Below, in pieces: positions 61,819 through 61,979 of a DNA stretch of 64,000 bases (position 1 is the stretch's first letter; each line of letters begins with the position of its first letter). This stretch comes from Centroberyx gerrardi (Eukaryota > Chordata > Actinopteri > Beryciformes > Berycidae). The DNA is taken from positions 29,100,001-29,164,000 of the forward strand of contig NC_136003.1 of assembly GCF_048128805.1 (NCBI RefSeq), in the 5' to 3' direction. Made by a program: the position numbers and the translations under genes. Under the pieces are notes generated by a model. The model was not told the origin of the DNA. It did no database searches and saw nothing but the letters and a program-made list of their open reading frames with translations.

Positions 61819-61979
61819 CTGCGCTCTCGGTGCCTGGTGGGTCTGGGAAGCTGCCGGGGGATGAAGGTGCTCTGGCTGCTCCTCAAACAGCCCATGACGG
61901 GGGAGGGGGGCAGAGCCGAGCCCCGGGACGCAGCGTCGCCCTCGGCCTCTTCAACGAGGGAGGAGCTGGAACTTCCCAT
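61819..61979 (-). CDS. capn15: Probable N-terminal coding exon of capn15
   Basis: A GC-rich island on the minus strand. The ATG at 61,979 follows an in-frame TGA 18 bases upstream and opens 161 coding bases that end CGCAG before a GTGAGC donor at 61,818. A CCTCACAG acceptor lies at 62,013. The phase (two bases left over) fits the acceptor at 58,494 (TCTCTCCAG), and the joined frame runs without a stop through five codons into [11 protein letters not shown]. This would add 59 residues, total 1,022. The peptide starts MGSSSSSL, with an internal second Met in MGCLRSSQ; both fit the N-myristoylation rule Met-Gly-x-x-x-Ser. Orthologues known to me start near the first zinc finger, so this is inference from splice logic. 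Confidence 0.6.

Follow-up and report, generated by a model that had tools for sequence, protein, structure and literature searches.

A conserved upstream exon predicted to give calpain-15 a Met-Gly N-terminus in the fish Centroberyx gerrardi

Background

The capn15 locus of Centroberyx gerrardi raises the question of whether calpain-15 begins within its zinc-finger exon or further upstream, in an exon that would give the protein a Met-Gly N-terminus. Human CAPN15 starts just ahead of the first zinc finger, with MATVGEWSC. The original prediction, made for a 64,000-nucleotide stretch of the fish genome (C7:29100001-29164000, the window, in whose coordinates positions are given unless C20 or L007 is named), was that an in-frame upstream exon supplies such a Met-Gly start. 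CAPN15, or SOLH, a calpain of the SOL family, is described in PMC12805371 as having five zinc fingers at the N-terminus and, after them, the catalytic domain of a calpain; the same paper reports CAPN15 variants in a human syndrome that affects the eye and neurodevelopment, as well as cleavage by CAPN15 of ubiquitinated E-cadherin, probably near the membrane. If true, a conserved lipid-anchor start would explain how calpain-15 reaches membrane substrates, would make it an animal calpain that carries the lipid for its own tethering, and would point mammalian workers to where a missed CAPN15 N-terminus may sit.

Results

The upstream exon, here exon 2, exists as a sequence feature and almost certainly codes for protein (Table 1). 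The acceptor proposed upstream of the ATG was found and ranks second, at 12.1, among the capn15 acceptors scored (top 13.48), while the proposed strong GTGAGC donor, at 11.85, is joint best among the capn15 donors scored; the scoring matrices were entered by hand. The extent originally given to the exon, 61819..61979, holds for its coding part and fails for the exon start, which the acceptor places at 62012; the in-frame stop expected before the ATG is present as a TGA in between. From the ATG at 61979 down to 61819 the coding stretch comprises 161 nt, or 53 codons plus AG, and runs into CAG|GTGAGC. Splicing to the acceptor at 58493 joins AG to T and forms AGT, a serine codon, and the joined frame contains no stop, in agreement with the phase fit claimed for the zinc-finger exon. 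The leader so formed places 59 extra residues, starting with MGSSSSSL as predicted, ahead of MPMQ. The GC content of exon 2 is 0.68 versus 0.41 in the adjoining intron, and its values by codon position (0.57/0.67/0.81) compare with 0.62/0.62/0.79 in the zinc-finger exon.

Table 1 Features of the capn15 locus and of its paralog
Feature	Position	Strand	Evidence or remark
Possible 5' untranslated exon 1	62969..63100	-	donor GTAAGT (62968), score 10.9; 5' end is a guess
capn15 exon 2	61819..62012	-	acceptor 12.1; donor 11.85; GC1/2/3 0.57/0.67/0.81; paralogous coding exon in same phase; dN/dS 0.23
Exon 2, coding part	61819-61979	-	
Exon 2, 5' untranslated part	61980-62012	-	in-frame TGA
First start codon, MGSSSSSL	61977..61979	-	strong Kozak, A at -3 and G at +4; paralog MGSSASSL also strong
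Internal in-frame ATG, MGCLRSSQ	61893..61895	-	strong Kozak; paralog counterpart MGWLRNSH
Intron, exon 2 to zinc-finger exon	58494..61818	-	3325 bp, GC 0.41
Zinc-finger exon, four RanBP-type fingers	57368..58493	-	previously expected starts MPMQ (58477) and MQSS (58471), both weak Kozak
Remaining capn15 coding exons	46691..55972	-	1022-codon open frame; Peptidase_C2 match; solved-calpain match
Individual exons	55972-55764, 54008-53825, 53164-52941, 52841-52716, 52225-52073	-	
Individual exons, continued	51203-51042, 50114-49894, 48347-48202, 48002-47824, 46868-46691 (stop)	-	
Paralogous coding exon	C20:17211981-17211803	-	same phase as exon 2

The joined model consists of exon 2, the zinc-finger exon and ten more exons, encoding 1022 residues with a stop at 46691. 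Its product matches Pfam Zn_ribbon_RanBP in four stretches (E 1.1e-23; one residue of the query was wrong, where the exons are joined and not within a finger), and the first finger matches the solved NZF domains of RNF31 and TAB2. Peptidase_C2 is matched over positions 1-297 of 297 (E 2.7e-84), solved calpains align with residues 418-741 (best E 1.4e-47), and the calpain Cys, His and Asn contexts are present as judged by eye. In SOL-family calpains a C-terminal SOL homology domain takes the place of the C2-like domain. The part after the protease domain matched no Pfam family at E <= 1, a result that argues against a C2-like domain recognisable by Pfam without identifying a SOL domain; the exons coding for this part are kept in the paralog described below. 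The fish protein therefore resembles CAPN15/SOLH in its order of zinc fingers and catalytic domain and differs from it in gaining the 59 residues and the Met-Gly start. By a simple zinc-finger motif the window copy has four matches (57368-58493) and the paralog six (C20:17197544-17199218), versus five fingers in CAPN15 as given in PMC12805371; some middle fingers may have been lost in the window copy. When the guessed exon 1 is joined to exon 2, an upstream ATG at 63040 opens a 30-codon frame in register with the MGSS start, and this frame (63040-61992) ends at the single TGA directly ahead of that start; further short upstream frames begin at 63094, 63048 and 63036. An inverted repeat seen by eye in a capn15 intron, at about 51650-51800, is perhaps a small transposon.

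The same genome carries a second capn15, on contig C20, in which this exon recurs in identical phase and lies 12.6 kb upstream of the zinc-finger exon. The joined window query matched the C20 zinc-finger exon at 17198978-17199214, and in a whole-genome search an upstream stretch on the same strand (C20 17211799-17211981) matched window residues 1-55 with an E of 1.5e-4. When the search was reversed, the paralog peptide recovered window exon 2 from the whole genome at E 1.3e-5; six candidates were scored, and the matches listed were the paralog's two exons and window exon 2, with no third place. A tblastn E of 4e-9 for exon 2 was shared with a second, spurious piece and was discarded as evidence. 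The paralog exon ends AG|GTAAGA, and the acceptor at 17199218 is followed by SHSHSPGSMAAAVRGSEWSC. The two peptides run from MGSSASSL to HRER in the paralog and from MGSSSSSL to HRER in the window, with partial agreement of the junction residues (HRER-S-FSSGSM in the window, HRER-S-HSHSPGSM in the paralog). Order, strand, phase, start and exon end are common to both copies, and judged by these alignments the paralog exon is an independent confirmation of window exon 2. With frame, phase and MGSSxSSL kept in the paralog, the proposal that an in-frame upstream exon gives capn15 a Met-Gly N-terminus was upheld. Directly upstream of the paralog ATG there is no strong acceptor (the best of those listed scores 6.2, versus 12.1 in the window) and the frame is open for at least 50 codons, so the 5' end of the paralog may differ, for example by a first exon. 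The last 14 bases of exon 2 (61819-61832, CACCGAGAGCGCAG) are identical in the paralog and possibly act as a splicing signal as well as coding for HRER.

The surroundings of the two copies were also compared. At the DNA level, exon 1 and the flanks showed no conservation: window 61819-64000 has no significant match to the plus strand of C20:17211700-17226500. Comparison of the window together with locus L007 (1475 open frames) with C20:17087000-17316500 (229.5 kb) revealed no recognisable shared neighbour: at E <= 1e-4, after duplicates and rows wholly inside window 46600-62200 were dropped, 32 rows were printed, of which one was the last capn15 exon in another frame and the others looked, on inspection by eye, like repeats or chance matches. 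With no shared neighbour recognised, descent of the copies from the teleost genome duplication is only a possibility; dS values of 0.46-2.24 over ten segments indicate that the copies are old but do not allow them to be dated. In viral contigs, six stretches fit a pattern for relatives and none was confirmed.

Results from the comparison of the two copies indicate that exon 2 is conserved as protein. Between window and paralog, 30 of 53 residues are identical, and blastn inside exon 2 found no significant match (best E 0.33). The protein alignment scored 121, whereas 5000 residue shuffles reached 39 at most and the other two frames scored 35 and 55, the latter meaning that some nucleotide similarity leaks across frames. 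Differences by codon position were 16/15/30 in 53 codons, giving a dS of 1.59, a dN of 0.37 and a dN/dS of 0.23; with counts rounded, Fisher's test gave p 5e-5. Neutral evolution, simulated with an equal number of differences, left 19.0 identical residues on average and at most 29 in 20,000 runs, one below the 30 observed; indels were not part of the simulation and the alignment had been chosen to maximise residue similarity, which makes the comparison somewhat generous. The zinc-finger exon stretch (residues 54-383) has a dN/dS of 0.35, higher than exon 2, and the other eight segments range over 0.06-0.40. These values come from ten hand-chosen segments of 847 codons in which two boundary residues are counted twice, and rest on two sequences from one genome; window-copy residues 384-429, 782, 849-903 and 965-1022 were left out, even though paralog matches existed for 384-429 and 849-903. 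On this evidence exon 2 is under purifying selection in both capn15 copies. Within codons 2-8, five differ silently, one is identical and one carries a replacement (S5A). Conserved blocks also occur in the middle of the leader (SPxMGxLRxSxS, TFIxRQ) and at its end (HRERS), not just in the first eight residues, and conservation spread in this way makes another function, such as docking or phosphorylation, possible.

Chance formation of such an exon was evaluated by shuffling 58494-62967 (4.5 kb, exon 2 included) and 61650-62100 (451 bp), counting as candidates exons of at least 40 codons in phase 2 with donor and acceptor above set thresholds. At 11/12 (donor/acceptor), thresholds picked just under the observed scores after these were known, candidates arose in 0 of 400 shuffles of the larger region and 0 of 2000 of the smaller. 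Relaxation to 10/10 gave 0/400 and 2/2000, and to 8/8, 13/400 and 11/2000. In window 1-57300, searched on both strands and in three phases at 11/12, there was no comparable candidate exon.

At the first ATG of exon 2, position -3 is A in the window and G in the paralog, and position +4 is G in each, so that the Kozak context is strong in both. In the window zinc-finger exon, MPMQ and MQSS are weak starts, and the start in the paralog zinc-finger exon is adequate. Because the first ATG is strong and the zinc-finger-exon starts are weaker, transcripts with exon 2 should mostly start at MGSS, and if exon 2 is constitutive this would be the main N-terminus and not that of an isoform. The description of the product as an isoform may be wrong, and the MGSS start may be the main one. 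Annotation databases likely already hold the MGSS N-terminus as a predicted fish protein.

To rate the two Met-Gly starts we used the pattern G-{EDRKHPFYW}-x-x-[STAGCN]-{P} (PROSITE PS00008) plus Ser6, which is less than a full predictor; PMC4736023 gives MGXXXS/T as the Ser6/Thr6 rule. Both starts had been held to fit the myristoylation rule. The first fits the pattern, with Ser6, in both copies, while the second fits in the window (MGCLRSSQ) and fails in the paralog (MGWLRNSH), so that dual acylation would be specific to the window copy at most. No cysteine is near Gly2 at the first start; at the second, position 3 is Cys in the window and Trp in the paralog, which weakens the suggestion that Cys3 could be palmitoylated. 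A conserved cysteine near Gly2, the mark of dually acylated proteins, is consequently absent. The motif is itself no proof of myristoylation, given that about 670 among about 3700 human Met-Gly proteins are predicted to be myristoylated (PMC8478909) and that Ser6/Thr6 is, according to PMC4736023, neither sufficient nor critical. The first start is followed by acidic residues at 10-11, with no cysteine or basic cluster nearby, and the hold of one myristate on a membrane would therefore be weak.

Discussion

We consider it probable that exon 2 is an old, normal N-terminal coding exon, and that its MGSSSSSL start makes calpain-15 a membrane-associated and probably N-myristoylated protein. The sequence shows the open frame, the splice signals and phase, the paralog conservation and the purifying selection; exon use in transcripts, the choice of start codon, myristoylation, attachment to membranes and the connection with substrates are inferred. 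Transcripts with exon 2 would begin translation at MGSSSSSL in its strong Kozak context, and the 59-residue leader would precede the first zinc finger, of the NZF type, a ubiquitin-binding class. After removal of Met, Gly2 would probably be N-myristoylated, placing part of the calpain-15 pool reversibly on membranes, near ubiquitinated membrane substrates, where the modified N-terminus would increase its local concentration. A lone myristate with no second signal would give weak, reversible binding; the leader ends in a conserved HRER(S), whose arginines may contribute a weak electrostatic attraction.

A possible but less probable reading is that the Met-Gly start is not lipidated and that the leader serves, as a disordered segment, for docking or phosphorylation, its Gly simply exposed or acetylated. 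It agrees with conserved blocks that run the whole length of the leader, beyond residues 2-8, and with the lack of a second membrane signal beside the first Gly, and it is opposed by the fact that both copies retain Gly2 and Ser6 of MGSSxSSL although five of codons 2-8 have changed silently. Use of the second start in the window copy, through leaky scanning or an in-exon transcription start, would yield an MGCLRSSQ terminus both myristoylated and palmitoylated, as in the dually acylated N-termini of Src-family and G-alpha proteins; its strong Kozak context, pattern fit and Cys3 speak for it, but the first ATG is also strong and earlier, and the paralog's MGWLRNSH fails the pattern, so the property is not common to both copies and we regard this as improbable. 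That exon 2 is spurious or noncoding, either a frame left open by chance where GC is high (at least 0.60 in 200-base windows from 61700 to 62099) or a conserved regulatory element, is very improbable: the exact 14-base match at the exon end, the candidates from loose-threshold shuffles and the purely predicted use of the exon fit such a view, but strict shuffles yield no candidate, conservation is at the protein level while DNA similarity is non-significant, dN/dS is low, and frame and splice phase are kept in both copies despite an 18-base length difference.

Myristoylated N-termini are known among calpain relatives and for a spliced enzyme. CAP5.5, a kinetoplastid calpain-like protein, is described as dually acylated and as attached in this way to the plasma membrane, and most kinetoplastid homologs are without catalytic residues, according to PMC13317235; the T. 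cruzi N-myristoylome includes calpain-like proteins (PMC4974623). These proteins combine calpain superfamily membership with an N-terminal Met-Gly acylation signal, as predicted here, which implies no kinship with exon 2, and CAP5.5 is dually acylated whereas the first start of fish capn15 has no cysteine. In the sperm hexokinase HK1S, a spliced alternative N-terminal segment with a myristoylated Met-Gly moves the enzyme to the plasma membrane, and Cys5, held to be palmitoylated, is also needed (PMC4736023). The likeness lies in a Met-Gly N-terminus derived by splicing, shown by experiment for HK1S and predicted from sequence for fish capn15, whose first start lacks a counterpart of Cys5. No report of myristoylated calpain-15 was found in the literature searched for calpain-15, Capn15 or small optic lobes together with myristoylation, and by word count "myristoyl" does not occur in the main texts of two CAPN15 papers, an Aplysia calpain paper and a review of membrane-anchored calpains. 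The one paper returned for Capn15 has the word a single time, in the title of a reference, and the one returned for small optic lobes concerns survivin and leukaemia.

A broader proposal is that fish calpain-15 is by default, in both copies, an N-myristoylated, membrane-associated, ubiquitin-directed protease, the cytosolic-looking mammalian start being either a derived loss or an isoform whose Met-Gly exon was overlooked among 5' untranslated exons; we offer this tentatively and think it rather unlikely as a whole. The N-terminus of Drosophila SOL presumably begins with Met-Gly and has Ser at position 6, like fish capn15; a full-text literature search for these presumed letters gave no match.

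Several open frames neighbour the gene. Downstream of capn15, the frame at 42447-42740 (-) resembles exon 1 of what we take to be STUB1, the ubiquitin ligase CHIP. Upstream, two frames in locus L007 (2925-3305 and 8572-9168, -) are presumably like AMDHD2, N-acetylglucosamine-6-phosphate deacetylase. Repeated frames on the plus strand at 4159-4473, 8156-8587, 11341-11637, 18569-19033 and 20074-20430 resemble what we assume to be exons of trypsin-like serine proteases and perhaps form a tandem pair.
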